From an uncultured Acidobacteriota bacterium (GTDB taxonomy: Bacteria; Acidobacteriota; Blastocatellia; RBC074), in NCBI GenBank assembly GCA_903828635.1, contig CAIKMY010000438.1, forward strand, positions 1 through 32,330: a stretch of DNA of 32,330 nucleotides. Reading direction: 5' to 3'. Both the position numbers and the translations under genes were made by a program. This document shows, piece by piece, positions 8,354-32,330 of this stretch. Under the pieces are notes generated by a model. That model searched no databases, had not been told where the DNA came from, and was given only the letters and a program-made list of their open reading frames with translations. Positions within the stretch are counted from its first letter, which is position 1; the number at the start of each line of letters is the position of its first letter.

Positions 8354-9835
8354 ATGCAAATGATGGATCTGTTCAATCTGTCGCTGGTCGGGAGATCTTC
8401 GGTAACGGGGCTGGAATACGACCTGCCGGGTGGCAGGACCGGCACACTGACCTTTGGCGAGATCGCGCAGCGAAGTGATCGCGTTGCCAGACTGCTGCAA
8501 TCACGCGGCTTTGTCACCGGCGATCGCCTCGGGATCTTCCTTGCCAACCGTGTCGAGTTCATCGATATCGTCCTCGCCTCCCTCAGGCTGGGAGTGATCA
8601 TTGTTCCAATCAATATCCTTTACCGCGAGCGGGAGTTGAGCCATATCGTCGCCGACGCTGAGCCGAAGGCGGTCGTCACCACGGCCGAAGGGGCGAGTTG
8701 GTTACCATCGGGGACGTCGTTCATCGATGTCGAGGAGATTGGCCGCGTTGCCGCCGAGCCGGGCACTGTCATGCCAATAAGGTTGTCGCTCGATGGTGAT
8801 ACGCCGGCGGCAATCGTCTACACCTCGGGCACGACTGGTCGCTCGAAGGGAGCAGTGCTTACTCACAACAATCTTGCCGCCAACGCTGTCAATCTGCTGA
8901 CCTGCTGGCGCATCACCCGTGAGGATCGCTACCTTGCAGCACTGCCGCTTTTTCACGTTCATGGCCTTGGCAATGGCGTTATGTGCTGGCTGATCAGCGG
9001 CTGTCTGATGCGGCTGGCAGAGCGCTTTGAGATCGACCGCGCGCCGTCACTCTTCAGTGAATTCCTGCCCACTCTCTTCTTTGGTGTGCCGACGATCTAT
9101 GTCCGGCTGCTCGAATTGCCGGACGGTCTGGCCGAAAGGATCGGCTCGGTGATGCGCCTCTTCGTCTCCGGCTCAGCACCACTGCCGGCCCACATCCTCA
9201 CTGCGTTTCGCGAGAAGTACGGCCACACCATCCTTGAGCGTTACGGAATGAGCGAGACGCTCATGAATATCAGCAATCCTTACGAGGGTGAGCGGCGCCC
9301 GGGCAGCGTCGGCTTTCCGTTGCCGGGTGTCTCTGTCAGGATTGTCGATGGAGAAGGGAAGCCGGCAGCCGATGAAACCGTCGGGGAGTTGCTGGTTCGT
9401 GGCCCGAATCTCTTTGCCGGTTACTGGCGTCGCCCGGAGGCGACTGCTGAGGCAATTCTCGAAGGTGGCTGGTTTCGCACCGGCGACCTCGGTGAGCGCT
9501 CGGCAGATGGCTACTACACGCTGCGTGGTCGTCGCACCGACCTGATTATCTCCGGAGGCTTCAACCTCTACCCGCGTGAGATCGAGGAGGTGCTGCTCGA
9601 ATATCCCGGAGTCCGTGATGCGGTCGTCTGCGGAGTCGAGGATCAGCGGCGTGGCGAGGTGCCGGTTGCCTACCTCGTCACCGATGACCCGCTCGATGCT
9701 GCCGCACTCGAATCCCTCTGCCGGCGCTCGCTTGCCTCATTCAAAGTTCCCCGAGCCTTCATTCGCGTCGACGCCCTGCCGCGCAATGCCATGGGTAAGG
9801 TCCAGAAACACCTGCTTCCACCGTGGAGATCATGA
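8354..9835 (+). CDS. AMP-dependent acyl-CoA synthetase, malonyl-CoA synthetase (MatB)-like
   Basis: ORF of 493 aa with P-loop VYTSGTTGRSKGAVLTHNN, LPLFHVHGLGNG, ERYGMSET, GWFRTGDLGERSADGYYTLRGRRTDLIISGGFNLYPREIE, and C-terminal NAMGKVQK. MatB-like assignment supported by the adjacent MatC-like gene. Confidence 0.85.
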   Translation: MQMMDLFNLSLVGRSSVTGLEYDLPGGRTGTLTFGEIAQRSDRVARLLQSRGFVTGDRLGIFLANRVEFIDIVLASLRLGVIIVPINILYRERELSHIVADAEPKAVVTTAEGASWLPSGTSFIDVEEIGRVAAEPGTVMPIRLSLDGDTPAAIVYTSGTTGRSKGAVLTHNNLAANAVNLLTCWRITREDRYLAALPLFHVHGLGNGVMCWLISGCLMRLAERFEIDRAPSLFSEFLPTLFFGVPTIYVRLLELPDGLAERIGSVMRLFVSGSAPLPAHILTAFREKYGHTILERYGMSETLMNISNPYEGERRPGSVGFPLPGVSVRIVDGEGKPAADETVGELLVRGPNLFAGYWRRPEATAEAILEGGWFRTGDLGERSADGYYTLRGRRTDLIISGGFNLYPREIEEVLLEYPGVRDAVVCGVEDQRRGEVPVAYLVTDDPLDAAALESLCRRSLASFKVPRAFIRVDALPRNAMGKVQKHLLPPWRS

Positions 9836-11076
9836 ACGCCGCGACCTTCTCACTCCTGGCCCTGCTGGCCGCAATCGTCCTTTCGATGGTGACGCGGCTC
9901 AATGTTGGATTGATCGCCCTTGCTCTTGCCTGGCTGATCGGGGGCCTCGCTGCCGGCCTTACTCCTGAGGCCGTCATGAATGGTTATCCGGTCTCCCTCT
10001 TTCTGACGATCAGTGGTGTCACGCTCCTCTTCGCCTGTGCCGAATCGAATAACGCCCTGCGAGTCCTTGCCACTCGCACCGTCCGACTCGCGCGCGGGAG
10101 GCGATGGGCCTTGCCACTCCTCTTCTTTCTGATTGCCGCCATCGTCTCGATGGTCGGGCCCGGCTCCATCTCCAGCGTCGCGCTCGTCATCCCGCTGGCA
10201 ATGGCCATCGGACTTCACGCCAAAGTTCCTGCTTTTCTCATCGCCCTTGCAGTGACTAACGGGGCCAACGCCGGTAATCTCTCGCCGGTCAGCACTGTCG
10301 GTATCGTCGCCAATAATCGCATGGCCGAGGCCGGACTCGGTGGCCACGAGTGGCGCGTCTTTGCCGCCAACTTCCTTGCCCATCTCCTCGTCACCGCCAT
10401 CGCCTTCCTCTTTCTGGGCGGCCTCCGCCTTCGTGGCGAGGTCGATGGCCGCGAACTTGAGTCGCCACCCTTCGAGCGTCATCACTGGATCAGCATCGCC
10501 ATCATCACCGCCTGGATCGTCGGTGTCATCTTCTTCAAGCTGCCACTCGGTCTCAGTTCCTTTGCTGCGGTTACCCTGATCTTCATCCTGCGCGCCGCCA
10601 GTCAGGACCTTTCGATCAAAATGGTTCCGTGGAGCGTTGTCCTCATGGTTACCGGTGTTGCCACCCTTATCGCGCTGATGGAGAAGACCGGCGGGCTCAA
10701 CCTCTTCACCTCTCTCCTTGCACGACTGGCCACTCCGGGCACGGTCAACGGAGTCATGGCGTTTGTCAGCGGCGCAATTTCGACCTACAGCAGCACCTCC
10801 GGCGTCGTTCTCCCCGCCTTTCTGCCGACGGTTCCCAACCTTGTCAGTCAGCTTGGTGGCGGCGATCCCCTGGCCATTGCCCTGAGCATCAACGTCGGCT
10901 CCGCCCTTGTCGATGTCTCTCCACTCTCGACACTCGGCGCCCTCTGCGTCGCCGCTGTCAAGGATCCCGAAGAGTCTCAGCGACTCTTCCACCACCTCTT
11001 TGTCTGGGGAGTCTCGATGATTCTCGTCGGTGCCGCCATCTGCCAGCTCTTTGCCGGCTGGATGGCCCGACTGTGA
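9832..11076 (+). CDS. MatC-like dicarboxylate (malonate) carrier, integral membrane protein
   Basis: Polytopic hydrophobic ORF; N-terminal half resembles MatC_N (LNVGLIALALAWLIGGLAAG, FLTISGVTLLFACAESNNALRVLATRTVRLARGRRWALPLLFF, NGANAGNLSPVSTVG). ORF track starts at GTG 9823; ATG 9832 overlaps the upstream TGA (ATGA) and is the likelier start. Confidence 0.75.
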   Translation: MNAATFSLLALLAAIVLSMVTRLNVGLIALALAWLIGGLAAGLTPEAVMNGYPVSLFLTISGVTLLFACAESNNALRVLATRTVRLARGRRWALPLLFFLIAAIVSMVGPGSISSVALVIPLAMAIGLHAKVPAFLIALAVTNGANAGNLSPVSTVGIVANNRMAEAGLGGHEWRVFAANFLAHLLVTAIAFLFLGGLRLRGEVDGRELESPPFERHHWISIAIITAWIVGVIFFKLPLGLSSFAAVTLIFILRAASQDLSIKMVPWSVVLMVTGVATLIALMEKTGGLNLFTSLLARLATPGTVNGVMAFVSGAISTYSSTSGVVLPAFLPTVPNLVSQLGGGDPLAIALSINVGSALVDVSPLSTLGALCVAAVKDPEESQRLFHHLFVWGVSMILVGAAICQLFAGWMARL

Positions 11077-14642: not shown

Positions 14643-14706
14643 ACAAATTGTCCCCAAAGTTTTTCTTCCCCTCGATTTTTCAGTTTGTCCTCCATAGAAG
14701 ACCTGC

Positions 14707-14738
14707 GGGGAAATATTTTTTGAAAAAAATATTTCCCC
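14707..14738. repeat. perfect inverted repeat GGGGAAATATTTTTT-GA-AAAAAATATTTCCCC
   Basis: 15-nt arms with 2-nt centre, immediately upstream of ncRNA cassette A. Confidence 0.85.
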
Positions 14739-14742
14739 GGCT

Positions 14743-14771
14743 ACAAATTCGCCTCACTCATTTCGTCTATA
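14743..14771 (+). promoter_or_regulatory. promoter-like bipartite element, cassette A: ACAAATTCG-N12-CGTCTATA
   Basis: Same two boxes with the same 12-nt spacer occur at 15145, 16801 and 17042. Confidence 0.6.
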
Positions 14772-14775
14772 TCTA

Positions 14776-14856
14776 CGAAAGCAGATGCTTTCTTGTGTGT
14801 AGATTCGAGTCGCGGTGTATCTCTCATTAAAACGGAGGCTACACCGCCATTTTTTT
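14776..14856 (+). ncRNA. candidate small RNA, cassette A (about 81 nt)
   Basis: 5' hairpin GAAAGCA(14777-14783)-GA-TGCTTTC(14786-14792), unpaired TTGTGTGTAG, terminator hairpin GCGGTGTA/TACACCGC followed by CATTTTTTT. Matches cassettes C and D in layout. Confidence 0.6.
14812..14856 (+). terminator. rho-independent terminator, cassette A
   Basis: Stem GCGGTGTA (14812-14819) / TACACCGC (14840-14847), then CATTTTTTT. Confidence 0.8.
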
Positions 14857-15008
14857 GCCTTCCTTCTCCCGAACAAGTGGCTGGGCACGCAGGCCGCCGG
14901 TCCGCTACTCACGAGTGGTGAGATCGATCTGCCCGGGTGTTTTCAGAATGTCATCAACGGCAGGAACTTGTCGATCGTCTGATCTGGTAGCAAAATCCTG
15001 GTCACTCC

Positions 15009-15103
15009 CGGGGAATATTTCCCGGTTGTCATATATGTCTGCGGGCCGGAGGCCCGCGCACCCGGGTCCGTGCGTCCGGGCTCCCCTTGATCCCCGGCCA
15101 AGA
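15009..15103. repeat. REP-like compound palindromic element
   Basis: CCGGGGAATATTTCCCGG near-palindrome, then GCGGGCC-GGA-GGCCCGC (15041-15057) and GC-rich CCCGGGTCCGTGCGTCCGGG. Confidence 0.55.
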
Positions 15104-15144
15104 TAAACTCGCCAAAAAATACTGAAGAAAACTTTTTCGTGGTT

Positions 15145-15173
15145 ACAAATTCGCACTTCTCATTTCGTCTATA
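15145..15173 (+). promoter_or_regulatory. promoter-like bipartite element, cassette B: ACAAATTCG-N12-CGTCTATA
   Basis: Identical boxes and spacing to cassette A. Confidence 0.6.
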
Positions 15174-15177
15174 CCCA

Positions 15178-15244
15178 TGGGAGTAGCTCCGAAGCTCGCA
15201 GCTGGCCGGATTCCCATACCTGCTGCCATCTTCGGATCTGCTCC
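15178..15244 (+). ncRNA. candidate small RNA or 5' region, cassette B (no clear terminator)
   Basis: Short hairpin GGAG-TAG-CTCC at the cassette position, and alternative long stem GGAGTAGCTCCGAAG (15180-15194) / CTTCGGATCTGCTCC (15230-15244) with one mismatch and one G-U; no U-run follows. Confidence 0.35.
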
Positions 15245-15260
15245 TGTCCTTGTTGTCCTG

Positions 15261-16568
15261 TTATCTCGACGGTTCCCGCTCGCCGCTGGCGAGGAGGAAT
15301 CCTGCCCAGTAGTGAGGATGGCTGGTCAGTGGATCGCCCATGACACTCAGTGCCGCCCGCCGCAAGGCGCCCGGCATTGACAATGGAGCGATAACCCCGT
15401 TTCCCATGTGAAAGAGATGGAAACGGATCAGCAGTTCGGCGCGCCGCAACGGGTCTGTTGACCAACGGTCGATCATTACCGATCGACATCCGGCGCTCAG
15501 AAATGCCGCCACCATCCTTACCACATCCCGCTCCCCTGCCATCCCCCTTCCAACATTCCCACAACCCGACAGGACAACAAGGGCAGCATCAAGTCTCAAT
15601 GACTCGATCTCCCGCCACCCGAGCCTCCCGTCCCTGTCAACCCCCTTACCCGTGTCCGCCATCACCAGGTATTCCCCCGGACCTTCCCCATTTTCTGCAT
15701 TCCCCGTACTCCCCGTATTCCCCGCATTCCCCGCACCCCCTGTACCCCGATTATCCCCCGGGCCCTCCTGTGCGCCCCAAATCTGTCTCAAGTGTTCCGC
15801 AGCCCCATTATCCGCTCTGATCCCGGCATTGATCGGCCTGCTCACCAATGGCAGGGCCACGTGAATTATCCCTGCCCGAGGTGCCAGCTTGCGAAAGGCC
15901 TCTTCGCTCGCCTTGATACCTTTCAATATCCGCAATCGCCTGTTGCCAAAGACTTCACCATAGACGCGCATCTCCGCATCGAAATCTGCTTCCACTCCTG
16001 CCTTTATCACTGCTTTCGTCCCGATCACACCCACGCTTGCAGCCGAGCCGCTCATTGCCAGCACCAGTCCGGCCCGGCTGCTGCGTGGTGGCCGCGGTCG
16101 CGCCTTCACCTTGGCCGACCCCGGCAATCTGCAATAGACAACCTCATACTTCTCCAGCAGATGCCGGCCATCCGGCATTATCAGTGCCTCGAACGGGAGC
16201 CCCTGGAGCAGTCCGTCCAGGTTTCCTGACTCCCCTGACTCGTCCTGATCATTCAGCCCATTCAATGCGACCAGCAGTCTCTTCCGGCCGTGAATAATTT
16301 CCGCTACCGGCCCAAGCAACCCCTTGTACAGTACCATCGCCGGCTGACGATACTGATTGCTCCGCTCCGCCAGCATTCGACGAAATCTTTCAACCTGCCA
16401 CTCCAACTCCGCCGGAGTAATCGCCAGCCCAATGCTCTTCCTGTTTCCATTAACTTCAATCGTTACCCGTATCTCATCACCGTCAGTCCCCCAGAACAGC
16501 AGTACCTCCCCGCCGACTGCTACTCCCCAGTCCAGTACCAGTGCCAATAACCACGGCAGTCCGGCCAT
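15261..16568 (-). CDS. CHAT-domain (caspase-like) protein, probably membrane-anchored or exported
   Basis: ORF of 435 aa: N-terminal hydrophobic stretch; CHAT landmarks LPFEALIMPDGRHLLEKYEVVYCRLPGS, IIHVALPL (His), LRLDAALVVLSGCGNVGRGMAGERDVVRMVAAFLSAGCRSVMIDRWSTD (Cys), HPHYWAGFLLASGERE. ATG at 16568 preceded by GGAGG. Confidence 0.75.
   Translation of the reverse strand: MAGLPWLLALVLDWGVAVGGEVLLFWGTDGDEIRVTIEVNGNRKSIGLAITPAELEWQVERFRRMLAERSNQYRQPAMVLYKGLLGPVAEIIHGRKRLLVALNGLNDQDESGESGNLDGLLQGLPFEALIMPDGRHLLEKYEVVYCRLPGSAKVKARPRPPRSSRAGLVLAMSGSAASVGVIGTKAVIKAGVEADFDAEMRVYGEVFGNRRLRILKGIKASEEAFRKLAPRAGIIHVALPLVSRPINAGIRADNGAAEHLRQIWGAQEGPGDNRGTGGAGNAGNTGSTGNAENGEGPGEYLVMADTGKGVDRDGRLGWREIESLRLDAALVVLSGCGNVGRGMAGERDVVRMVAAFLSAGCRSVMIDRWSTDPLRRAELLIRFHLFHMGNGVIAPLSMPGALRRAALSVMGDPLTSHPHYWAGFLLASGEREPSR
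15697..15759. repeat. 9-bp in-frame tandem repeat within the CHAT gene
   Basis: Seven degenerate 9-mers on the plus strand (gcattcccc gtactcccc gtattcccc gcattcccc gcaccccct gtaccccga ttatccccc) encoding the Gly/Asn-rich insert GDNRGTGGAGNAGNTGSTGNA. Confidence 0.8.
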
Positions 16569-16634
16569 CCCAACCTCCGGTCGTTTACGCAGTCGCTCGT
16601 GCCTTTAACTATCTGACAGTGACTGACGATCATA

Positions 16635-16709
16635 ATATGCTCCGCCAGGATGCGCTCGGCCATAATGCGCTCGGCCATAATGCGCTTCGCCGGAATGCCC
16701 TCCAGGCTT
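16635..16709. repeat. 15-bp tandem repeat upstream of the CHAT gene (about 5 units, consensus ATGCGCTCGGCCATA)
   Basis: 16650-16664 and 16665-16679 identical; flanking units 16635-16649, 16680-16694 and 16695-16709 degenerate. Confidence 0.8.
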
Positions 16710-16800
16710 CACTATCAGCCCTCACAAACGGATAAGACGCGAGTTTGCTGGCCCGATTCCATCTTCCTCCAATTATTTATCTGTTTATTTTGTGTGGAAT

Positions 16801-16829
16801 ACAAAAACTAGCTGGTGGGATCGTCTATA
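16801..16829 (+). promoter_or_regulatory. promoter-like bipartite element, cassette C: ACAAAAACT-N12-CGTCTATA
   Basis: Downstream box identical to A and B, upstream box ACAAA-like, same 12-nt spacer. Confidence 0.55.
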
Positions 16830-16833
16830 GAAG

Positions 16834-16914
16834 TGGAAGCAGGCGCTTCCAGAACATGTGAAATATTTGCGTGCGGCTAGCCGACTAACCTTCAGGCAAT
16901 GCCGCCTTTTTTTT
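16834..16914 (+). ncRNA. candidate small RNA, cassette C (about 81 nt)
   Basis: 5' hairpin GGAAGC(16835-16840)-AGGC-GCTTCC(16845-16850), unpaired ACATGTGAAAT, terminator hairpin and T8. Confidence 0.6.
16873..16914 (+). terminator. rho-independent terminator, cassette C
   Basis: GCGGC (16873-16877) / GCCGC (16901-16905) with inner GCC/GGC helix, followed by CTTTTTTTT. Confidence 0.7.
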
Positions 16915-16975
16915 GCCTAAATCCTGCCAGCCGACTCTCCCTGATAACTTACTATCATCGTCCGCGGGACCAGCC

Positions 16976-17026
16976 TGTGGAAAACTGTCTCTCTGTCTGT
17001 GGAAAACTTGAGAAAACTGTGGAAAA
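16976..17026 (-). promoter_or_regulatory. cluster of three DnaA-box-like 9-mers TTTTCCACA
   Basis: TGTGGAAAA on the plus strand at 16976-16984, 16998-17006 and 17018-17026, spaced 22 and 20 bp; fits the relaxed DnaA box TTWTNCACA. Confidence 0.45.
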
Positions 17027-17041
17027 AATCGGCAAATCGTG

Positions 17042-17070
17042 ACAAATTCGGCCTTTGAAAATCGTCGATA
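17042..17070 (+). promoter_or_regulatory. promoter-like bipartite element, cassette D: ACAAATTCG-N12-CGTCGATA
   Basis: Same boxes and spacing as A and B, with one change (T to G) in the downstream box. Confidence 0.6.
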
Positions 17071-17074
17071 GATG

Positions 17075-17162
17075 TGGAAACAACAGTTTCTCATGTGTGT
17101 GTACAACAATGTACACTTTTGATGCGGCGAGCACCTTTCTCCCTGGAGCCGCCGCATTTTTT
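17075..17162 (+). ncRNA. candidate small RNA, cassette D (about 88 nt)
   Basis: 5' hairpin GGAAAC(17076-17081)-AACA-GTTTCT(17086-17091), middle hairpin GTGTACA/TGTACAC (17099-17116), terminator hairpin and T-run. Confidence 0.6.
17122..17162 (+). terminator. rho-independent terminator, cassette D
   Basis: ATGCGGCG (17122-17129) / CGCCGCAT (17150-17157) followed by TTTTT. Confidence 0.8.
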
Positions 17163-17185: not shown

Positions 17186-18415
17186 TCACTGCCGGGCAGG
17201 CTCGTGAAGCACGCCGCTGGCAAAGAGCCCGTCAAGTTCGGCATCATCGACGTGCAGCAGCTCGCGCAGTGTCTGACGGGTATGCTCACCGGCGAGAGGT
17301 GCCGGCAAGTGTCTGCTGCCGGGTGTCTCTGAGAACTTCACTGGTGATCCGGTGACGAGATAATCACCGGCCAGCGGATGGCTGAGCTGCGGGAAGAGTT
17401 CGCGTGCCGCCGATTGCGGGTCATTGAGCACTTCGGTAAAGCTGCGCACCAGTGAGCAGGGGATGCCCTTTGCCCGCAGCCTGACGATCCACTCGTCGGC
17501 TGTTCGCTGACGAAAGATCTCTTCCAGCAGCCGTTCGAGCCCGTCGCGGTTTGATACCCTCAGCGAATTGGTGGCAAAGTCAGGATGATCCTCCAGGTCA
17601 GGCCGCTCAATCACCTCGCAGAATGCTGCCCAGAGCTTCTCGCTGCCGACGGCAATCGCCAAACTCCGATCACTCCCGGCATAGCAACGGTAGGGAACGA
17701 TCGTCGCAAATGAGGTTCCCATCGGTCGCGGATCGACTCCTGATCCAAGGAAGTAGGACCAGTTGGAGCACATCGCCGAGATCAGCGTGTCAAACATCGA
17801 GACATCGACAAATTGACCAAGCCCTGTCCGCTCGCGATATTGCAGCGCCATCAATATCCCGATAGCCGAGAACATCCCCGCAGTGATGTCCGCCACGGAA
17901 AAACCACTCCGTACCTGCTCTCCTGTCTCGGTCCCCGTAGTGCTGATCAGCCCCGACGATGCCTGCAGGATCAGATCCATTGCTGCCTCGTTTCGCGACG
18001 GGCCGTTCTGTCCGTAGCCCGAGATCGAGCAGTAGATCAATCGCGGATTGACTTCACGCGCTGCCGCATAGCCAAGGCCCAGCCGATCCATTGTTCCTGG
18101 CCGGAAGTTCTCAATCAATACGTCCACTTCTTTGATCAGTTGCAGACAGAGCTTCACTCCCTCCGGCCGCTTGAGGTCGATCGAGATCCCGCGCTTCCCG
18201 CGGTTGAGGCCGAGAAAGAAGGCCGCCTCACCGCCAATGAAGGGAGGCCCCCAGCCTCGCGCCATGTCACCGCCAGCCGTTGACTCCACTTTGTAAACTT
18301 CCGCTCCGTATTCCGCCAGAATCAGCGTACAATACGGACCGGCCAGCGCGTGTGAAAAGTCGAGCACTCGCAGGCCGCCGAGAGCAGTCTGCGTGTCGCC
18401 ACTCTGAGTCTCCAT
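17186..18415 (-). CDS. CaiB/BaiF (family III) CoA-transferase
   Basis: ORF of 409 aa: LGGLRVLDFSHALAGPYCTLILAEYGAEVYKVES, LNRGKRGISIDLKRPEG, DVLIENFRPGTMDRLGLGY, YCSISGYGQNGP. Confidence 0.93.
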   Translation of the reverse strand: METQSGDTQTALGGLRVLDFSHALAGPYCTLILAEYGAEVYKVESTAGGDMARGWGPPFIGGEAAFFLGLNRGKRGISIDLKRPEGVKLCLQLIKEVDVLIENFRPGTMDRLGLGYAAAREVNPRLIYCSISGYGQNGPSRNEAAMDLILQASSGLISTTGTETGEQVRSGFSVADITAGMFSAIGILMALQYRERTGLGQFVDVSMFDTLISAMCSNWSYFLGSGVDPRPMGTSFATIVPYRCYAGSDRSLAIAVGSEKLWAAFCEVIERPDLEDHPDFATNSLRVSNRDGLERLLEEIFRQRTADEWIVRLRAKGIPCSLVRSFTEVLNDPQSAARELFPQLSHPLAGDYLVTGSPVKFSETPGSRHLPAPLAGEHTRQTLRELLHVDDAELDGLFASGVLHEPARQ

Positions 18416-22088: not shown

Positions 22089-25000
22089 ATGGAATCCAAA
22101 CCATTAAATAATTGTCCTTCGAAACAAGATGACGGTTGCTCCCTGTCAACTCAGCAAATACTGCGAGAAGAGTACTGCTATATTGATCAAAATACATTAT
22201 GTGCACGAACAGTAAGTACACATCACTGTAATAATGACGATGATTCTGCCAGGCAGTGCTCTCAATGTGAGGGTAGTACTCTTGATAGTCTGGAAACGCT
22301 TTACACCAAAATTCACAAGGATAATAAACGTACGGCACTCTGTATTTCAGGTGGAGGCATTCGAAGTGCCTCATTTGGTCTGGGTGTTTTACAAGGGCTT
22401 GCAAAGCACATAGATATCAAAGATTTTCATTATCTTTCAACCGTCTCCGGTGGTGGATACATTGGAAGCTGGTTGTCAGTCTGGATTCATCGTGTTGGAA
22501 TGGAAAAGGTTCAACAGCAACTTGAAGGTGTTAATACATCTGTTTACTCTTCAAACTCTGAGCAGGATGCAATATCATATCTTCGTCGCTATAGCAGTTA
22601 TCTGAGTCCCAGAACGGGATTGTTTTCCCTTGATATCTGGGCTTTAGCAGGCATATATCTGCGGAATTTACTGCTCAACTGGTTGGTATTACTCCCATTG
22701 GTGCTGGTTTTACTGCAAATTCTCTGGATCTGGGCTTCTTTTTTATATTATGTCAGTTGTTCATCCTCTTCAAATTCAGTATTTAATTATTTGGGCGTAT
22801 CATGCTTTGTAGCATTGGCGGTGATAATGCGATTTACCTCCAGCAGCCTGACAGCAAATTCAGGTCATCCACTGGGTTCAAAGACAGATGAGAATGAAGC
22901 ATATTTGTCAAGATTGACAAGGATAATAAAAGCTCTTTTAGTAAATCAATGTGTTGTGGTTATAAGTTTGTTAGTTCCTTTAGTGATCAGTATATTATGG
23001 TTTCTACAAGAAAAAGATCTTGGCCTGGCTTTTTCTACTGTTAAATATCCAATTGTCATCGTCCTTTTAAGTGCCATCTTTGCAAGAATCGATGTAATTG
23101 TAAAATATCTATTTGATTGGCGTAAAAACAGACATAAAATCAGTGACATTAGTCAGTTACTCTTAAAAACATTGAGAATAGGTTTGGCAATAGGTGCCGC
23201 TGTCAGTTTTGCGTGGTATGCTGTCTGTGTTATGTTTCAACAAGCAGCATATCATCAGCTGAATACAATGCGGATGTTCAATACTCTCAATATGTACAAG
23301 CCATTCGATTCGGGTTATCAATTAAGTGGCGCACTAGTCGCTACAATAGGTCCGGCGATATTTATTCTTATATTTCTACTGGCTTCAACACTATACATAG
23401 GATTGGCAAGTTATGATACAAGCGATGCCGATCGCGAATTAATGGCCAGATTTGGCGGGCTACTTCTTCAGATATCGTCTGTCTGGCTTATTTTGAGCAG
23501 TCTCGTCTATTTTGCGCCGTTGGGTATAATCTGGTTGTGGGAAAATTTCAACTTGTCATTCATCTCATTGTTTGCCGGAACAGCTGTAACTTCTTTGTTG
23601 GGCTGGCACCGGAGCAGTATCAAAGCCGGAGAGTCGCCGCATAGTAATCTGAATGTGATTAGTAAATCTGCATATTTATCAAGATTAGTTCTCAATATTG
23701 GTTCAGTCACTCTTCTATTGTTGATACTTGGCACATTGGCATTATCTCTCACTTATATTAACGACGCTGTTCACAGTATCATAAGCAAATATGCCAACCA
23801 GCAACAATTGCCAATCTTCAACATCTTTAGTTATCGCAATTCTCACGTACTATCAGTATTACTAATTGCCGGCATTTTAGTGCTCTTCAGTTTTATAATC
23901 AGCCAGTTCGTTAATGTTAACAAATACTCGCTTCACGGAGCTTATAGGAATCGACTGATACGAGCTTTTTTAGGAGGAGCGTCAGAGGTAGCCGGAGAAA
24001 GGAGACCTAATAACTTCACTGAAATGGATGATCATGACAATCTTCAAATGCATGAACTGATAAAGCCCGTCTACGAGGATATACGCGACCTTGCAAAGTT
24101 AGTTAATGCACTGAGAGATCATGATGGTCACAGCCTGAACAATCACGCAGACAAAATACACATAATTCGAAGGAAACTGAGTCCCGCCACTCGACGATTG
24201 ATTGAAGAATACAAGACCGAGACTGCCGATCAACCTTACGAACTGAAAACAAAATTGATTGCAGATTTTAACCGGATATTGCATGGTGAGCCACTAAATC
24301 TGTATCAACCTTTTACAAATGATGCTGACGAGAATTTAAAAAAGCTTGTTGACAGTCAACCTGTGTTCAAACACTTTAATTTTAAATATAAAATAGTACA
24401 AAAGCTGACAGCAAGAAAAGTATATGTTGATAGCATTGATATCAACAGGCTTATCATCAACTCGTTATTTGGCAACGAAATATTCAAGCTGACTGATAAT
24501 TCTAATAACAAAGCACCTTTTCATATTATCAATATGGCGTTGAATTTGGTTAGGGTCGATAATCTTGCCTGGCGTGATCGAAAAGCCCAGTCATTTACGG
24601 CTTCTCCGTTACATGTAGGTAGTTGGCAGAAGCTTGGGTACAGAAAATCGAGGCAATATGGAATTAACCCTCCTCAGAATCGAGCCATTACTATTGGAAC
24701 GAGCATGGCAATATCAGGAGCCGTGGCCAGCCCCAATATGGGTTATCATTCCTCACCCTTTTTAACATCATTGATGACATTGTTGAATATCAGACTGGGC
24801 TGGTGGAGTGGCAATCCCGGGGAAGCTGGTAATGATACATTTATGAGATCCTGTCCGAGGTATGCGCCCCAGCCATTGATAGCTGAATTTCTGGGTCTCA
24901 GTAACAATAGAAGTAGTTACATCTATCTGACTGACGGTGGACATTTTGAGAATCTTGGTCTGTATGAAATGGTACTTCGTCGATGCAAATATATAGTAGT

Positions 25001-25529
25001 AGTAGATAGTAGTCAGGATGAAAAGTTCGATTTTGATAGTCTGGGAAATGCTGTGAATAAAATACGTATCGACATGGGCATACCAATTGTTTTTGATGCA
25101 GTTCCCATCACCAGGCGCAAGAAAGTACTGACTCGACAAGACACCAATCAACTTAAGGCTAATCAACAATATTGTGCGGTTGCAACTATAAAATATTCTG
25201 TTGTTGATAAGTGTGAGGGGTTGAATGATTCGCAAATTGATGGAAAATTGATCTATATCAAGCCATCAGTGTACGGCAATGAGCCTTTGGATGTATATAA
25301 GTATGCATTGGCAAATCCGACTTTCCCTCACGAATCAACTGCAGATCAGGTATATAGTGAGAATCAATTTGAAAGCTATCGCGAGCTGGGTGCCTATGCT
25401 GTGAATCAGATTCTAGGTGGTATCTCTGGTAATAAAATATCAATAAAACAGTTATGGGACTATGCATGTCTTCATACTGGAGCACTATCTGATACTCCAG
25501 TTGATAATAATCCCTCAGGGAGCGACTGA
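22089..25529 (+). CDS. large patatin-like phospholipase with multi-TM insertion
   Basis: ORF of 1146 aa: oxyanion motif ALCISGGGIRSASFGLGVLQGL, nucleophile region YLSTVSGGGYIGSWL (about residue 120), a run of hydrophobic TM-like segments, late YIYLTDGGHFENLGLYEMV (catalytic DGG-type Asp, about residue 950). Strikingly AT-rich. Confidence 0.88.
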   Translation: MESKPLNNCPSKQDDGCSLSTQQILREEYCYIDQNTLCARTVSTHHCNNDDDSARQCSQCEGSTLDSLETLYTKIHKDNKRTALCISGGGIRSASFGLGVLQGLAKHIDIKDFHYLSTVSGGGYIGSWLSVWIHRVGMEKVQQQLEGVNTSVYSSNSEQDAISYLRRYSSYLSPRTGLFSLDIWALAGIYLRNLLLNWLVLLPLVLVLLQILWIWASFLYYVSCSSSSNSVFNYLGVSCFVALAVIMRFTSSSLTANSGHPLGSKTDENEAYLSRLTRIIKALLVNQCVVVISLLVPLVISILWFLQEKDLGLAFSTVKYPIVIVLLSAIFARIDVIVKYLFDWRKNRHKISDISQLLLKTLRIGLAIGAAVSFAWYAVCVMFQQAAYHQLNTMRMFNTLNMYKPFDSGYQLSGALVATIGPAIFILIFLLASTLYIGLASYDTSDADRELMARFGGLLLQISSVWLILSSLVYFAPLGIIWLWENFNLSFISLFAGTAVTSLLGWHRSSIKAGESPHSNLNVISKSAYLSRLVLNIGSVTLLLLILGTLALSLTYINDAVHSIISKYANQQQLPIFNIFSYRNSHVLSVLLIAGILVLFSFIISQFVNVNKYSLHGAYRNRLIRAFLGGASEVAGERRPNNFTEMDDHDNLQMHELIKPVYEDIRDLAKLVNALRDHDGHSLNNHADKIHIIRRKLSPATRRLIEEYKTETADQPYELKTKLIADFNRILHGEPLNLYQPFTNDADENLKKLVDSQPVFKHFNFKYKIVQKLTARKVYVDSIDINRLIINSLFGNEIFKLTDNSNNKAPFHIINMALNLVRVDNLAWRDRKAQSFTASPLHVGSWQKLGYRKSRQYGINPPQNRAITIGTSMAISGAVASPNMGYHSSPFLTSLMTLLNIRLGWWSGNPGEAGNDTFMRSCPRYAPQPLIAEFLGLSNNRSSYIYLTDGGHFENLGLYEMVLRRCKYIVVVDSSQDEKFDFDSLGNAVNKIRIDMGIPIVFDAVPITRRKKVLTRQDTNQLKANQQYCAVATIKYSVVDKCEGLNDSQIDGKLIYIKPSVYGNEPLDVYKYALANPTFPHESTADQVYSENQFESYRELGAYAVNQILGGISGNKISIKQLWDYACLHTGALSDTPVDNNPSGSD

Positions 25530-25545
25530 CATTCCCCCACGCCAT

Positions 25546-27624
25546 TCACCCCGCGACCGTCACGAGGAGAAACTCCCTCGCCCGTGTTGCCGCCACATAG
25601 CGTTCACACCTCTCCCTGATGGGAGCCTCTTCGAGTCGATTGATCGCGTCATCGGGAGAGGCGCAGGCCATGGCGACGGCGCGAAATTCCAGTCCCTTGA
25701 TGCGTTTCATTGAGCCCATGCGGATACCGGGGATTTCAGAGCCGGGATCCTCTTCGCGAGGGCGCAATTCGTGGACGCTGAGACCGGCCTCATTGAGTGC
25801 CCTGCGGAGAGAGGGTTTGTAGGGGGTGATACAGATTTCGTGAGTTGCCAGGTGGTGTTTATCGCGGAGTTCAGCGATCCAGGAGGTAACAGCTCTGGCC
25901 TCGGCCGAATCGTTGGCGCAGTTGACGATGCGAGGATCGACGGGGCCGCGGAAGGCGGAGTGATCGCCGATGGCAGAGGTTTGGCCACCATCGAGGTCAT
26001 CGATTTCGACGCCGGTGAGGATGCGTTCAGCGAAGTGGCGGATCTGCTGGCTGGTGCGGTAATTGATTTTGAGGCGGCGTGAGCGGCCACGGACATCGAT
26101 ACCGGCGCGGGTCAGGGGGACTTTGGCGCGGTAGATGCGTTGGTGGCCATCGCCGGTGAGGCAGAGTGGATCGGGTGCACCGGAAGAAGCGGGAGAGATG
26201 GCGCGGATGAGACGGAGGGCTTCGAGGCTGAAGTCCTGGGTTTCATCGACGAGGACGTGGGCATAGCTCTGAAATGTTCCGCGTTCGACGGCGAGGCGGG
26301 CCTCGTGAATGGCGCCTTCGAAGGAGAGGAGGTGTCGTTTGCGAAGGGTGCGTTCAAATGCACGGAAGATGCGCCAGGCAGCACGCCGTTGTTCGCGAGA
26401 GATACGCGGACGGCCTGGGCGCAGGGCAGTGAGGTAGGCCTCTTCTTCATCGATGCCGTTGGCTTCGACTATGAGTTCATATTCAAGCCGCAGTTGCTGG
26501 CGATCAGGAGTGATCTGACTGCCGGAGTCATCGCAGACGGCATCCCATGCAAGGTTGATGTCATCGTCATCGGCCATGCGCCCGTTCCAGCCGGCGCGAT
26601 GGCAGATGGTACGGGCGAGGGCGTGGAGGTTGGTAACCTCGATTCGTTTGGCGGCTTCGGGATCGAGCCGGCGGATGAGCTGGCGAATGGTCGCGGAGAG
26701 GTTGGTGGTAAAGGTGGTGACGAGGATCTTCGCGGTGGGATCACCGGAGGCGAGCAGGCGGCGGGCAAGTTTGACGGCGCGATGGATAAGGGCGACGGTC
26801 TTGCCGGTGCCGGCGGCTCCGGTGACCCGAATGGGGCCACTGGTCTGCCAATCGACTATTTTGCGCTGGCAGGGGTGAAGGAAAAGGCGCCATTCGTCGA
26901 ATGAGCCGGCGAGTACCTGGCGAAGTTCGTCGCGCCCCTCGACAAGGACGAGGTCGAAGTTGGGAGCCTCCTCGATGTGCGAGAAGTCACCAGTGCCAGC
27001 GGGTGTCGTGGGCGAGTGGCCGGGGGGGGACTCGCGGCCAAGCATCTCGGTCAGGGCCTCATCGAGCGACATGCCGGAGACGAGGCCATAAAGGACATCG
27101 CTGCAGCCGGAGGGGAGATAGGGGCTGATGTGGTCGAGTCCGGCATCGGAGCGGATCGAGCGAATGGCCGGAATGAGCGGTTGCGGCACACCGGCGATGT
27201 AAAGGTCATTATCGCTGAAGTGGTCGAGGGGATAGGGAGGGGTTGGGGTGGTGACGGGATTGTCGAGGGTGACGGCAGAGAGCTCTTCGGCATTGAAGAT
27301 CTGGAAGACGCCGGTCATGGCGTGGACTTCAAAGCGTTTGTTGCGAGCCCAGTCATAGGCCTCGTCGTGTGGGGCAACGTAAACGAGCAGGTAGTTATCA
27401 CCCTTCTCCGGGGCGATGATGATGGCGCGGTAGCCATCGGGCAGTTTGGTGACGCCGCGGACCTTGGGATCAAGCATCGATTCGGTTACGGGGTGCATGC
27501 CGATGGCAGGGGCGAAGGGGTTTTCCTGAAACTCGTCGATGAGGTCAGTGATGCGTTTCTGCACCTTTGCCGGCAGTTTGGAGAAGTTTTTGAGAATGTT
27601 GCGATGGATCATCAAACGGGCCAT
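25546..27624 (-). CDS. RelE/ParE-like domain fused to UvrD/Rep-type (SF1) helicase
   Basis: ORF of 692 aa: N-terminal LMIHRNILKNFSKLPAKVQKRITDLIDEFQENPF...KVRGVTKLPDGYRAIIIAPEKGDNYLLVYVAPHDEAYDWA (RelE-like); Walker A VTGAAGTGKTVALIHRA; Walker B AHVLVDETQDFS; INYRTSQQIRHFAERIL; C-terminal YVAATRAREFLLV. Confidence 0.85.
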   Translation of the reverse strand: MARLMIHRNILKNFSKLPAKVQKRITDLIDEFQENPFAPAIGMHPVTESMLDPKVRGVTKLPDGYRAIIIAPEKGDNYLLVYVAPHDEAYDWARNKRFEVHAMTGVFQIFNAEELSAVTLDNPVTTPTPPYPLDHFSDNDLYIAGVPQPLIPAIRSIRSDAGLDHISPYLPSGCSDVLYGLVSGMSLDEALTEMLGRESPPGHSPTTPAGTGDFSHIEEAPNFDLVLVEGRDELRQVLAGSFDEWRLFLHPCQRKIVDWQTSGPIRVTGAAGTGKTVALIHRAVKLARRLLASGDPTAKILVTTFTTNLSATIRQLIRRLDPEAAKRIEVTNLHALARTICHRAGWNGRMADDDDINLAWDAVCDDSGSQITPDRQQLRLEYELIVEANGIDEEEAYLTALRPGRPRISREQRRAAWRIFRAFERTLRKRHLLSFEGAIHEARLAVERGTFQSYAHVLVDETQDFSLEALRLIRAISPASSGAPDPLCLTGDGHQRIYRAKVPLTRAGIDVRGRSRRLKINYRTSQQIRHFAERILTGVEIDDLDGGQTSAIGDHSAFRGPVDPRIVNCANDSAEARAVTSWIAELRDKHHLATHEICITPYKPSLRRALNEAGLSVHELRPREEDPGSEIPGIRMGSMKRIKGLEFRAVAMACASPDDAINRLEEAPIRERCERYVAATRAREFLLVTVAG

Positions 27625-27649
27625 GTGGTCTCCAGATCAGGCCTTTGAG

Positions 27650-30600
27650 TCAGGCCTTTCCGACAAGGTCGATAAGTTCAGACGACGGGGTATCGATGGT
27701 GGCGATTGACCAGCCACGTCGCTGCCATTCGGCGGCAAGGGTTGCCTGTTCACCGGCGAGGATGGCGAGTGGTGGCGAGGCGGTTGGCCAGGCAAGCTCA
27801 GCAAAGGATTCCTCGGCAAAGTCATCAAGGAAATATTCGGTTTGAGGGAGAGCGGCACCGCTCGAGGCCAGTTGTCGAACGAGAGGTTCGAGTGATGGCG
27901 CGACAGCATCGAGGATTGGCTGCCAGGCTGCGGGGATGCCGGCTGGTGTGTGGAGCAGCAGGTCGGGTGCGGTACCGGCGTCGATTTCGGATGTCGCGTG
28001 AAAATGGAAATTATTGGCGAATTGCAGGAGGTTGAGACAGCCGAGAAAGCGGCGCCAGCGTGTTGAGTAATCGGGGCTGGAGCATTCGTCGTTACGGTCA
28101 TCGAGACGGCCAAGAAAGATAATCGAGGTGGGGCGTCTGCTGAGCACCTCGCTGGTTGGGATGCAGGCGGCGATATCCTGTTCAAGGGTGAGGCGATCGC
28201 TGACGACCCAGGCAGCGCCGGTGGTTGCCGGGAGTGGCGCGAGCGGGCCACCCTGTTGCCACGTATTGAGTGCGGCGCGAAGGCTGCCGGTATCGAGAGT
28301 TCGCTGCTGTTGAGCGAGGAGGTAGAGTGGATTGATGCCGATGATGTGGGCAAATTCGGTCCAGACCTCGCGGCGCGGTGTTTTGATAAACTCGGCAAGC
28401 TGGGCAAAGCTGGCGCGGGTGACGGCCTCGGGGTCAGGCAGTTGCGGGTCACTTTTGCGCCGGGCATTGGCATAGACCTTCAGTGGAGCGGTCATCATCT
28501 CCGGGAAGAGGGACAGGCCGGGCATTGCGCCGTCGAGGTCATCCCAGGTGATGCTCCAGACAAGGTAGCGCCGGCTTTCGATGATCGCGCGGCGCTTTTG
28601 CAGGTCGTCAGCGATGCGGTTGTGCGGGTGGCAGTGAAACTGGAATCCATCGGTGAAGATGGCAATTGGCGGAAGGCTCTCGTCATCGGCGCGCAGCAGG
28701 AAGTCGGGGCGGCAGGGGATGGCGACACCATCCTTTGGGCCGAGTGTCGGCTGCGGTTCAAGTTCCCAGAAGCGGTCGGGATGGCTGGCGGGATTGAAGC
28801 GATAGCCGGCGCGGCCGCGGATGACGGTCTGTTCCCAGTTGCCGTGTTCCGCATCGACAAAGTAGTGAAGTGTGTCGATAAAGCGCTTTTCGAGAAGGCT
28901 CTGCCAGAGGGAATTGATGCGGATGTCATCGAGTGATTCGCGGGGGGCGCGATTGTCGCCGGCGGTAATCAGTTGGCCGAGCAGGACAATGGCCCGCTCG
29001 CGGCTGATGCGTCCGGCCTCGTGTTGCTGGCGCCAGTTGCGAATGCAGCGGTAGCAGCCATCGCTGTCGGCGCGATCGAGCGATGTCTGCACCTGGCGAC
29101 AGGGGCAGTTTTCGAGAGCAGCTCGTGCGAGGCGCAGCGCGTGAAGCATCCCCTCACCCTCACGGCCGCGTGCGTCTTTCTCCTGATAAAGCGATTTGAG
29201 GTAGCCGGTTCCGCCGGGGACGGTGTCCATGACTATGAGGTAGTAGCGATTGAGGCCCTTTGCCGGGTCGGGCAGGGCGTGTGGCTGGACGAGGAGGTGT
29301 TCCGGATCTCCCTCGAAGCGGAGGCGAAGCCCGAGCATGATTGCCGCGCTGAGAGTCGCGATATCGGAATTATCAGCGATTGGCAGCAGGAGGCGAATGG
29401 CCTCCGAGCGGAGTTCGCGGTAAAGGTAGAGTGATTTCCAGTTGTACTCGGTGGCGGCGCGCCCTTCCTGGAGGCGCTTTTCGATGCGACGTCGGGCGAT
29501 GCAACTGCGGCGATGGATTACTTTGTCGCGCCCGGCGGGTGATGTGGTTGGCGGTTCGATGATGCCGCAGTCGGCGCAGACGCGAAAGCCATCGTCGGTG
29601 GCTCGCTGATCGACGCCGAAGGGGACGACCGGGGCGAGGTTCTGGTAGCCGGTATTGATTTCGCGCAGGGTGACATCGGCGCGGTACTCGATACCAAAGG
29701 GGAGAGTATCCTCGCCGACCGCACCCCGCGCAGCCTCGCCGGTGAGGTCGAAGCTGACGACGTGATGGTAGCGCTGGCTTTCGCGCTCTTCGCTGCGATC
29801 GGCGGAGAGGCTCTCGTAATGCTCCATGTGTGAGAAGGCGGTCGAGCGCGAGAAGAGGAGGAACGGCCGGCGCTGGCCAATATCGATCTGACTGTTTGAG
29901 ACGTCGTCGTGGCCGCATTGCGGACAGGCCGTCGCCTGTGGGTTGGCGAGCAAATCGGTTTCGCGTCGCATGTGACCGCAGGCGCCACAGATTGCCCACG
30001 TCTCAACCAGCGGGTTCTGAGCGTTACCGAGAGCGATCTGCTGGATGTCAAAGACGCGGCCGTGAGTATAGAAATGGTTGGCCGGGGCCAGTTCGCGCAG
30101 ACCGGTGGCTGCCGGGCGTCGAATGTCGATCGTCTGCTGATCAGGGCCCCCGTGGCGATCGTCATCGCCACCCGATTCGTGTGACGCCTGCCGTTCAGGC
30201 CGGCGCCTGGAGTGTCGATGACGGTTGTAGACGGTGCCGTTAAACGGGATGCCCTCCTCGGGGAAGGCGTAGTTGGGCAGCAGGCCGCGATCGGTAAGAA
30301 TTTCGAGTGACGGCATGCGGCTGAGGCTGAGCTGGCGGCTGCGGAGGACGCGCAGTTCGCGAGCGATCTCCTCGCGGGCCTCATTTTCGTCCTTCTCCAG
30401 ACGGTCATGCTGTTCACGAAGCCGGCGGCGTGCATTGTCGAGGTCACGCAGTGTGCGGTCGATCTCTTCGATGGCCATGGCAATCTGATGGCGCAGCAGT
30501 TCGGTGGAAGTGTCGCGCAGGAACCGTTCGCCGGTGTCTGCCTGGATATCGTCACGGAAGCGGTGCAGAAAGGTGGTACGCAGTTCGGTTTCGTGAGCCT

Positions 30601-31093
30601 CGATCCAGTCGAGCGTGCGGCGAAGCTGGCCCGCGGGGTTGGCGAAATCATCGATCATCTGGCGTGCGGTCGATGGCAGGCTGGTGAGCACCTCGCCGGC
30701 AGTTGCTGAATCAAGGCAGAAGGCGAGGTACTGCCTGACAAGCACGGCCGAGGCATCGAGCCAGCATCCCGGGGGATCGATCTTGCCGCGCAGCATCTCT
30801 ATGGGGCGGCCATAAAAGAAGAGATCGTGCGGCCGCTGGTTGATCAGCGAAACGATCAGCGCAGTGCCGGTTGCGCGGCCGGCGCGTCCGATGCGTTGCA
30901 GATAGCCTGCTGTGTTCGGCGGAATCGAGCAGAGCATCGTGCTGGAGAGATCGCCGATATCGATGCCCATTTCGAGCGTGCTGGTGCAGGCGATGACGTT
31001 GGGATTGTCGACCTGTTCGCCCTGTGCAAAGTCACGCTCCAGCCGCTCGCGCTCCTCCGTTTCGAGCAGTCCGGTATGCTCGCGGGCGATCAC
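27650..31093 (-). CDS. SF2 helicase, DUF1998-type, C-terminal portion downstream of an in-frame amber codon; C-terminal nuclease-like region
   Basis: ORF of 1147 aa: helicase C motifs VIACTSTLEMGIDIGDLSSTMLCSIPPNTAGYLQRIGRAGRATGTALIVSL, zinc clusters (CGACGH..CPQCGH; CPCRQVQ..CYRC) of DUF1998 type, and CRPDFLLRADDESLPPIAIFTDGFQFHCHPHNRIADDLQKRRAIIESRRYLVWSITWDDL resembling a Vsr/DUF559-like nuclease fold. Confidence 0.85.
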   Translation of the reverse strand: MIAREHTGLLETEERERLERDFAQGEQVDNPNVIACTSTLEMGIDIGDLSSTMLCSIPPNTAGYLQRIGRAGRATGTALIVSLINQRPHDLFFYGRPIEMLRGKIDPPGCWLDASAVLVRQYLAFCLDSATAGEVLTSLPSTARQMIDDFANPAGQLRRTLDWIEAHETELRTTFLHRFRDDIQADTGERFLRDTSTELLRHQIAMAIEEIDRTLRDLDNARRRLREQHDRLEKDENEAREEIARELRVLRSRQLSLSRMPSLEILTDRGLLPNYAFPEEGIPFNGTVYNRHRHSRRRPERQASHESGGDDDRHGGPDQQTIDIRRPAATGLRELAPANHFYTHGRVFDIQQIALGNAQNPLVETWAICGACGHMRRETDLLANPQATACPQCGHDDVSNSQIDIGQRRPFLLFSRSTAFSHMEHYESLSADRSEERESQRYHHVVSFDLTGEAARGAVGEDTLPFGIEYRADVTLREINTGYQNLAPVVPFGVDQRATDDGFRVCADCGIIEPPTTSPAGRDKVIHRRSCIARRRIEKRLQEGRAATEYNWKSLYLYRELRSEAIRLLLPIADNSDIATLSAAIMLGLRLRFEGDPEHLLVQPHALPDPAKGLNRYYLIVMDTVPGGTGYLKSLYQEKDARGREGEGMLHALRLARAALENCPCRQVQTSLDRADSDGCYRCIRNWRQQHEAGRISRERAIVLLGQLITAGDNRAPRESLDDIRINSLWQSLLEKRFIDTLHYFVDAEHGNWEQTVIRGRAGYRFNPASHPDRFWELEPQPTLGPKDGVAIPCRPDFLLRADDESLPPIAIFTDGFQFHCHPHNRIADDLQKRRAIIESRRYLVWSITWDDLDGAMPGLSLFPEMMTAPLKVYANARRKSDPQLPDPEAVTRASFAQLAEFIKTPRREVWTEFAHIIGINPLYLLAQQQRTLDTGSLRAALNTWQQGGPLAPLPATTGAAWVVSDRLTLEQDIAACIPTSEVLSRRPTSIIFLGRLDDRNDECSSPDYSTRWRRFLGCLNLLQFANNFHFHATSEIDAGTAPDLLLHTPAGIPAAWQPILDAVAPSLEPLVRQLASSGAALPQTEYFLDDFAEESFAELAWPTASPPLAILAGEQATLAAEWQRRGWSIATIDTPSSELIDLVGKA

Positions 31094-31135
31094 CCGTCGC
31101 AGCGCACCCTTGCGGTATCGCTCCTGATAATAGCG

Positions 31136-32330
31136 CTATCGTGGCGAGTAATCTTTGACCTCGTAGTGTCCATTGACGGCATCGTATTCGAGGCTCGGTG
31201 CACCTTTCCAGCAGGCGGCTTCGGCGGATGGCCTGATGAGTGACCGTTTGCTCTGGCTGCAGACGAGGTGGACGCACTCACCGGTCAGAGTGGCGGCGGT
31301 GGCGGTGATCGCATAGATCCTCTTTGCCCCATCGACGTGCAGCCGGCTGAAGAGTCCGGTCGTTTCGCCCAGTCGCAGCAGCGTGTCGATGAGGTCGAGG
31401 AGGCTTGTTTCATTGGCGTGGCGCAGTTCGAGGGCGCGCCGTGCCCAGATGATCTGCCACGGTGACTGGTGACCGCGCGTTGTTGCCAGAACGTGATCCT
31501 GCTCGCGCTGCGGCTGGGTAACCATCAATTTTGGTTTGTAGTATCCTGATGGCGGATAGGTCTCGCGATCGGGAACAGCCCTGCCGAATGGATATTTGCC
31601 CCAGTCACCGCGCCGTGCAAGGTCGTGGAGGAACGGGTGATCGAGGGCACCACGCAGGCGCGCACGATGAAGGAAACCATAAAGCCAGCGGCGCAGCAGC
31701 CGGTCGGAGAGCGAGCGCCACGTTGGATCGATGCGTGGCAGCCGCTCGATCAGCTCGCCGAGGGTGTGGTCGATCAGTGATTCATTCCAGCCGAGGCAGG
31801 CGCTGCCGACCGCTTCCATTGTTCGTCCGCGCATCTGCAGCAGCCCGAATTCACTGGTCGCCTCCCAGGTCAGTCGCTCCTCGATCTCGCGGCGCAGTCG
31901 TGCCGGCGGCTCAGTGACCGATGAGTCACGAAATTCGACAAAGTCGGGATAATCGTGCAGATCCGGTGGCAGCAGCGAGGCCATGGCATTGCGAATACTG
32001 CCGGGCCAGCCGGGGCGCTCCCGTGACCACCATTCGAGCAGCGTCGTGCCGGCTTGTATCAGCGGCAGCCCCGCAGAGCCGGCGCTGTCAATCGCCTGCT
32101 GCAAGGCGGTGCGCAGCGTGAAGCGATAGGTTCGCGAGCTGAAGAATCCGGCACGATGGGAGGCATCCTGCACGCTGTCGGTGAAGGCGAGCAGCTTTGG
32201 ATCAGAGTTGAGCGTCGAGCCGAAGAGCTCGTCGATGGCCACGCTCGAAAGCGTTGCCGCGCGGCTGCCGAGAAAGAAGACGCTCTCCCTGCTGCCGCAG
32301 TTCGGGCAGCCCTGATCGCCGATGTTGCCG
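31136..32330 (-). CDS. SF2 helicase, DUF1998-type, upstream portion of the same gene; partial at right edge, ends at in-frame TAG
   Basis: Open to the window edge in frame (GNIGDQGCPNCGSRESVFFLGSRAATLSSVAIDELFGSTLNSDPKLLAFTDSVQDASHRAGFFSSRTYRF); TAG at 31136-31138 is in the same frame as the downstream ORF. Confidence 0.82.
   Translation of the reverse strand, partial: GNIGDQGCPNCGSRESVFFLGSRAATLSSVAIDELFGSTLNSDPKLLAFTDSVQDASHRAGFFSSRTYRFTLRTALQQAIDSAGSAGLPLIQAGTTLLEWWSRERPGWPGSIRNAMASLLPPDLHDYPDFVEFRDSSVTEPPARLRREIEERLTWEATSEFGLLQMRGRTMEAVGSACLGWNESLIDHTLGELIERLPRIDPTWRSLSDRLLRRWLYGFLHRARLRGALDHPFLHDLARRGDWGKYPFGRAVPDRETYPPSGYYKPKLMVTQPQREQDHVLATTRGHQSPWQIIWARRALELRHANETSLLDLIDTLLRLGETTGLFSRLHVDGAKRIYAITATAATLTGECVHLVCSQSKRSLIRPSAEAACWKGAPSLEYDAVNGHYEVKDYSPR

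Follow-up and report, generated by a model that had tools for sequence, protein, structure and literature searches.

A candidate ECF-sigma-driven family of multicopy small RNAs in a freshwater Acidobacteria lineage

The question raised by this locus is whether the short promoter–hairpin units on both sides of a CHAT protease-like gene in an uncultured Acidobacteriota bacterium are genes of a small RNA family and, if so, what would drive them and on what they would act. The units lie at 14743–17162 of the window, the whole stretch of 32,330 nt analysed here. An earlier note had described four of them, A to D, three with terminators. Rereading of the sequence confirmed the layout of A, C and D as promoter, hairpin and terminator, and also the distance from the CGTC box to the end of the T-run, which is 85 nt in A, 85 nt in C and 92 nt in D. 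The features are as follows.

14743–14771, + strand: promoter of cassette A, ACAAA-N16-CGTCTATA, with an A/T tract upstream at approximately 14723–14733
14772–14856, + strand: cassette A RNA, with the 5′ hairpin at 14777–14792, the GU stretch UUGUGUGUAG at 14793–14802 and the terminator at 14812–14856
15145–15173, + strand: promoter B, ACAAA-N16-CGTCTATA, without a terminator cassette downstream; transcription from it would enter the CHAT gene antisense at the 3′ end
16801–16829, + strand: promoter of cassette C, ACAAA-N16-CGTCTATA
16830–16914, + strand: cassette C RNA, the type member of the C-type copies, with the 5′ hairpin at 16835–16850 and the terminator at 16873–16914
16853–16861, + strand: GU stretch of cassette C, AACAUGUGA, part of which is within a weak second hairpin at 16856–16872
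17042–17070, + strand: promoter of cassette D, ACAAA-N16-CGTCGATA
17071–17162, + strand: cassette D RNA, with the 5′ hairpin at 17076–17091 and the GU stretch AUGUGUGUGU at 17093–17103
17099–17116 and 17121–17162, + strand: second hairpin and terminator in the 3′ part of the cassette D RNA

The gap between ACAAA and CGTC, previously given as 12 nt, is exactly 16 nt in all four promoters. B does have the promoter boxes and does lack a terminator, but it is a promoter only and not a fourth cassette; instead of the small GGAG/CTCC hairpin assigned to it, B folds as one long hairpin (z-score of −4.3) without a GUGUG stretch. A GU-rich UGUG element is common to A, C and D, and the terminal U runs of the cassettes are 6–9 long. 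The folding z-scores are −3.7, −1.3 and −5.6 for A, C and D, respectively, so C is unconvincing by folding energy alone. Directly upstream of promoter A, a perfect 16 nt inverted repeat, CGGGGAAATATTTTTT (window 14706–14739), overlaps the A/T tract. The sequence 3′ of promoter B (15239–15261) resembles the CHAT coding sequence around VVLSG (15569–15591) in a 23 nt inverted match (87%), which may be chance or a gene remnant.

To place these cassettes, we compared the incomplete genome from which the window comes (G000, the own genome) with that of a sister species (G001, LaPlata_bin-2064), and the evidence for the family comes from these two species. The pattern ACAAA-N{14,18}-CGTCKATA has ten matches in the 4.3 Mb own genome, every one with a gap of 16 nt and four of them in the window region, and the reversed pattern has none. 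One match outside the window, C85, is a clear paralogue of C. The consensus promoter is composed of an A/T tract, RCAAA, 16 nt and CGTCWATA. In 25 promoters from both species, the A/T tract (approximately AAAAAAATTTT) lies 10–20 nt 5′ of the −35 box, and the −10 box is followed at a fixed position by TG; the tract resembles an UP element. The combination of a CGTC −10 box with a 16 nt spacer is typical of ECF promoters (PMC3426412), and RCAAA-N16-CGTCWATA is ECF-sigma-like in its sequence.

Going beyond the earlier note, we found the same putative ECF-sigma-type promoter in front of protein genes. It precedes an ECF-type sigma gene in the own genome (G000:C148:21051-21752), the product of which matches TIGR02937 (sigma70-ECF) above the cut-off, and both paralogues of this gene in the sister. 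Genes for a family of secreted proteins follow it too in both species, and one pair of these is 74% identical between the species. Among the 11 genomes of the taxonomic family, the ECF sigma is present in only the two that have the RNAs and missing from the other nine; the promoter is likewise enriched above its control only in these two. This sigma is probably responsible for transcription of its own gene as well as of the secreted-protein family, and the RNA genes, which are scattered over the chromosome, are apparently all switched on by this one dedicated stress-type sigma, although other sigmas could read the promoter. The secreted-protein family has no Pfam or NCBIfam name (L012:8371-9438, L012:5352-6410 and L126:4442-5530 on the − strand; L013:5438-6769 on the + strand), and small zf-HC2 proteins lie near its genes.

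The earlier note had also proposed a search of relatives for homologous cassettes, and further copies are indeed present in both the own genome and the sister species. A joined pattern of −10 box and hairpin start has five exact copies in the sister genome, the only other one of the genus in the comparison, and one further copy in the own genome at C432. A covariance model, R1, was built from seven C-type copies and recovers ten, three of them in the own genome and seven in the sister; C129 and C210 among these had been left out of the building, and neither is a near-copy of a building sequence. R1 finds cassette A, also outside the building set, at E = 2.3e-6, and cassette D is too divergent for this model. 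The D-type counterpart in the sister begins at G001:C26:9306, approximately 400 nt from the C counterpart. The own genome thus holds three C-type copies with A and D, and the sister holds seven C-type copies and one D-type.

The family is restricted to the genus. The exact core pattern matched four contigs across 85,462 species, all of which belong to LaPlata_bin-2064. Weak R1 matches in other genera (at most 27 bits; 160 other genomes of the class) were rejected, being without the promoter and resembling generic terminators or coding DNA. Two palindromes in the sister genome were rejected as cassettes as well: they share the hairpin but lie in longer duplicated stretches (G001:C186:12984-13001 and G001:C64:233-250), where the hairpin TGGAAGCAGGCGCTTCCA stands upstream of a gene and has no ECF promoter. 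No known RNA family was matched in Rfam, Acido-1 included: Rfam 15 gave no match at the gathering score in the window, and at E values up to 10 the 14743–17162 region showed only chance-level matches, none of them to Acido-1 (RF01686).

Conservation among nine C-type copies, compared after one near-duplicate was dropped, is confined to short islands. The pairwise identity is 0.90 for each promoter box, 0.96 for the hairpin, 0.87 for the GU stretch and 0.98–1.00 for the terminator stem; values are far lower for the promoter spacer (0.31), the terminator loop (0.34) and the four bases 3′ of the −10 box (0.38). Islands of this kind at fixed distances are the footprint expected of a promoter and a functional RNA. 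A small peptide product was rejected: neither a start codon nor a reading frame is conserved, and the indels are not multiples of three. Covariation was analysed in ten sequences from the two species (C-type copies with A, D and the sister D), in which 96.9% of the cells are paired in two stems. Double changes fill 12 cells compared with 4.0 in shuffles (0 of 500 reach 12) and at most 4 with the arms slid. The covariation of the 5′ hairpin arms reported earlier holds among A, C-type and D-type, with pairing in excess of the shuffled control; because the ten sequences are related, it is support and not proof. Covariation within the C-type copies alone is not significant since their arms hardly vary.

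With copies in two species, pairing above shuffled sequence and no Rfam match, the earlier proposal of an undescribed multicopy sRNA family with a selected structure stands, at an RNA length of approximately 75–90 nt. Judged by sequence, the copies are multicopy sibling sRNAs: they are paralogous and intergenic, with a conserved core, divergent flanks and their own putative promoters and terminators. A, C and D are taken to represent an RNA family of a freshwater Acidobacteria lineage that is real and new and belongs to an already known kind of sRNA.

As for function, we consider it reasonably probable that these are ECF-sigma-driven paralogous sRNAs of approximately 75–90 nt that act in trans via a GU-rich seed, most likely as repressors. 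The short terminated cassettes sit directly 3′ of the ECF-type promoter, with terminators at 75–90 nt. The dedicated ECF sigma would transcribe A, C and D from the A/T tract and RCAAA-N16-CGTCWATA, and all copies would rise together when it is active. The 5′ hairpin on each RNA should protect the RNA end, and a stretch rich in GU and for the most part weakly paired (AAUGUGUGAG, UUGUGUGUAG or AUGUGUGUGU), followed by the Rho-independent terminator on the 3′ side, is the candidate pairing region. This stretch would most likely pair in trans with CA-rich mRNA segments and so cause repression, probably with Hfq, which scores 93 bits in the sister and 25 bits, below the cut-off, in the incomplete own genome. 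We infer the seed to be the GU-rich UGUG element (GUGUG) because, besides the hairpin, it is what A, C-type and D-type share. In the C-type RNAs, a weak second hairpin overlaps the proposed seed in part and may hide it.

Searches for targets addressed the pairing step. Exact seed complements (10-mers) lie almost exclusively opposite the sRNAs themselves, and those of the C-type seed in the own genome only opposite an sRNA; the reversed control is near zero too, so this search says little, and it yielded no usable target. A leader on contig C352 (G000:C352:14290 on; L013:5291) has an RCAAA-N16-CGTC-type promoter, followed by AACTACACACACC, a strong hairpin and a secreted-protein gene, and AACTACACACACC could pair by complementarity with two GU stretches, that of A and that of the second cassette family described below. 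This promoter-driven leader carries AACUACACACACC. When duplexes between this leader and A, C or D were calculated, with accessibility ignored, their energies were not better than shuffled.

The hairpin and the downstream genes allow two other modes of action. The sigma-driven RNAs might instead bind a protein at the conserved 5′ hairpin and serve as its decoy or sponge, as CsrB and 6S RNA do. The hairpin, in both loop and arms, is the most conserved part of the RNA, and multicopy decoys are a known strategy. However, each RNA has one hairpin, with GGA only inside the stem, unlike the repeated loop GGA motifs of CsrB, and the arm sequence is changed in A and D, which a sequence-specific binder would resist; we regard protein binding as unlikely. 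More doubtful still is a role as 5′ leaders or attenuators, by which the cassettes would act in cis on the gene that follows. A promoter and terminator before a gene are an attenuator layout, a gene follows on the same strand at S404, S210 and S389, and the C352 leader precedes a secreted-protein gene, but C, S31 and S129 point towards a gene of the other strand. The genes 3′ of the copies are unrelated to each other, several of them lying on the opposite strand, and this speaks for action in trans.

The gene order in the sister bears on the remaining explanations. There, an acyl-CoA ligase, a transporter, C, D and a CoA-transferase follow one another with no CHAT gene. The window has the same ligase (8354–9835), transporter (9823–11076) and CoA-transferase (17186–18415), but between the transporter and C it also has genes for a TonB receptor and a META-domain protein, together with A, B and CHAT. 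Copies of a small mobile element or dispersed repeat with no regulatory role would also be dispersed, multicopy and restricted to the genus, and S389 and S453, being alike in spacer and terminator loop, seem to have arisen by recent duplication; yet C and D are syntenic in two species, and decay would not keep the boxes, the exact distance and the stems while spacer and loop randomise, which leaves this origin very improbable. Least credible is the idea, in part that of the earlier note, that the RNAs regulate CHAT locally or that B gives an antisense RNA to it: promoters A to D flank CHAT and B would read into it from its 3′ end, but C and D occupy the corresponding place in the sister without CHAT, and copies elsewhere have unrelated neighbours and no CHAT. 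CHAT is thus not a conserved partner, and the protease gene is probably just a neighbour.

Two further regions of the window were noted. At 25546–32242 (− strand), a UvrD-like helicase adjoins a DEAD/DEAH-type helicase with an MrfA zinc-binding domain, and PADLOC profiles match DruE/GajB-like models; by its sequence, this may be a defence locus that frameshifts or ORF calls have broken up. At 22089–25529 (+ strand) lies a patatin-like protein of 1146 aa with many membrane segments, with GC below that of the surroundings.

The search for CA-rich complements exposed a second dispersed sRNA-like cassette, which is read on the opposite strand and is composed of a GGAAC-N16-CGT(G) promoter, GUGUGUAGUUUGUGA, a strong terminator (GAGGUGGUCAGC...GGUCACCUC) and a U run. 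It has two copies in the own genome (G000:C395:12504-12527 and G000:C432:26-48) and about ten in the sister (G001:C40, C134, C412, C417 and C495; L167–L178), three of them in tandem on C495. In the nine other genomes of the taxonomic family, one match was found, in unrelated sequence. The GUGUG stretch is common to both cassette families, the one with RCAAA-N16-CGTC and the one with GGAAC-N16-CGTG promoters. In C395, C412 and C432, the second cassette is head-on to a CGTCTATA promoter or a C-type cassette. Because of this arrangement, the two ECF-type-promoter families might form cross-talking regulons in which RNAs sponge RNAs and balance two stress responses, an idea we hold to be rather unlikely.

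For a poorly studied phylum, the trans-acting reading provides a concrete candidate RNA regulon with a promoter, a sigma, protein co-targets, a multicopy RNA and a candidate seed, and the C-type family supplies a covariance-model seed for annotation. No paper that treats Acidobacteria, small RNA and ECF sigma together was found in the open-access full-text literature.

Among known systems, the sigma-E-dependent RybB and MicA of enterobacteria are short intergenic sRNAs read by an ECF-type sigma. The RNAs described here resemble them in being short and intergenic, in probably being read by an ECF-type sigma alongside envelope-protein genes and in having a terminator with a U run, but there are many paralogous copies in one family, the −35 element is another and there is no sequence relation (no Rfam match). 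For pairing with envelope-protein mRNAs, a trait of RybB and MicA, the seed-complement searches and duplex energies gave no support. Region R1 of GcvB, a single-copy long sRNA of gammaproteobacteria, is GU-rich and its pairing with CA-rich mRNA is proven; the GU-rich stretch here is similar, with pairing to CA-rich mRNA as a proposal from sequence, in RNAs that are multicopy and short. LhrC and csRNA are other multicopy sibling sRNA families. Acido-1 (RF01686; PMC2864571) is likewise a noncoding RNA motif of Acidobacteria, but it has no match in this region even at E values up to 10. ECF41 promoters (PMC3426412) share the CGTC −10 box and the 16 nt spacer but have TGTCACA as the −35 element compared with RCAAA here, and the present sigma is not placed in ECF41. 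Finally, the FopS sRNAs of Bacteroides thetaiotaomicron number around a dozen per genome, and their targets and binding protein have been shown (PMC11697453). They are unrelated in sequence and have a single-stranded 5′ seed with no 5′ hairpin; in both families, numerous short paralogues are dispersed over the genome and have a conserved candidate seed as well as a Rho-independent terminator.
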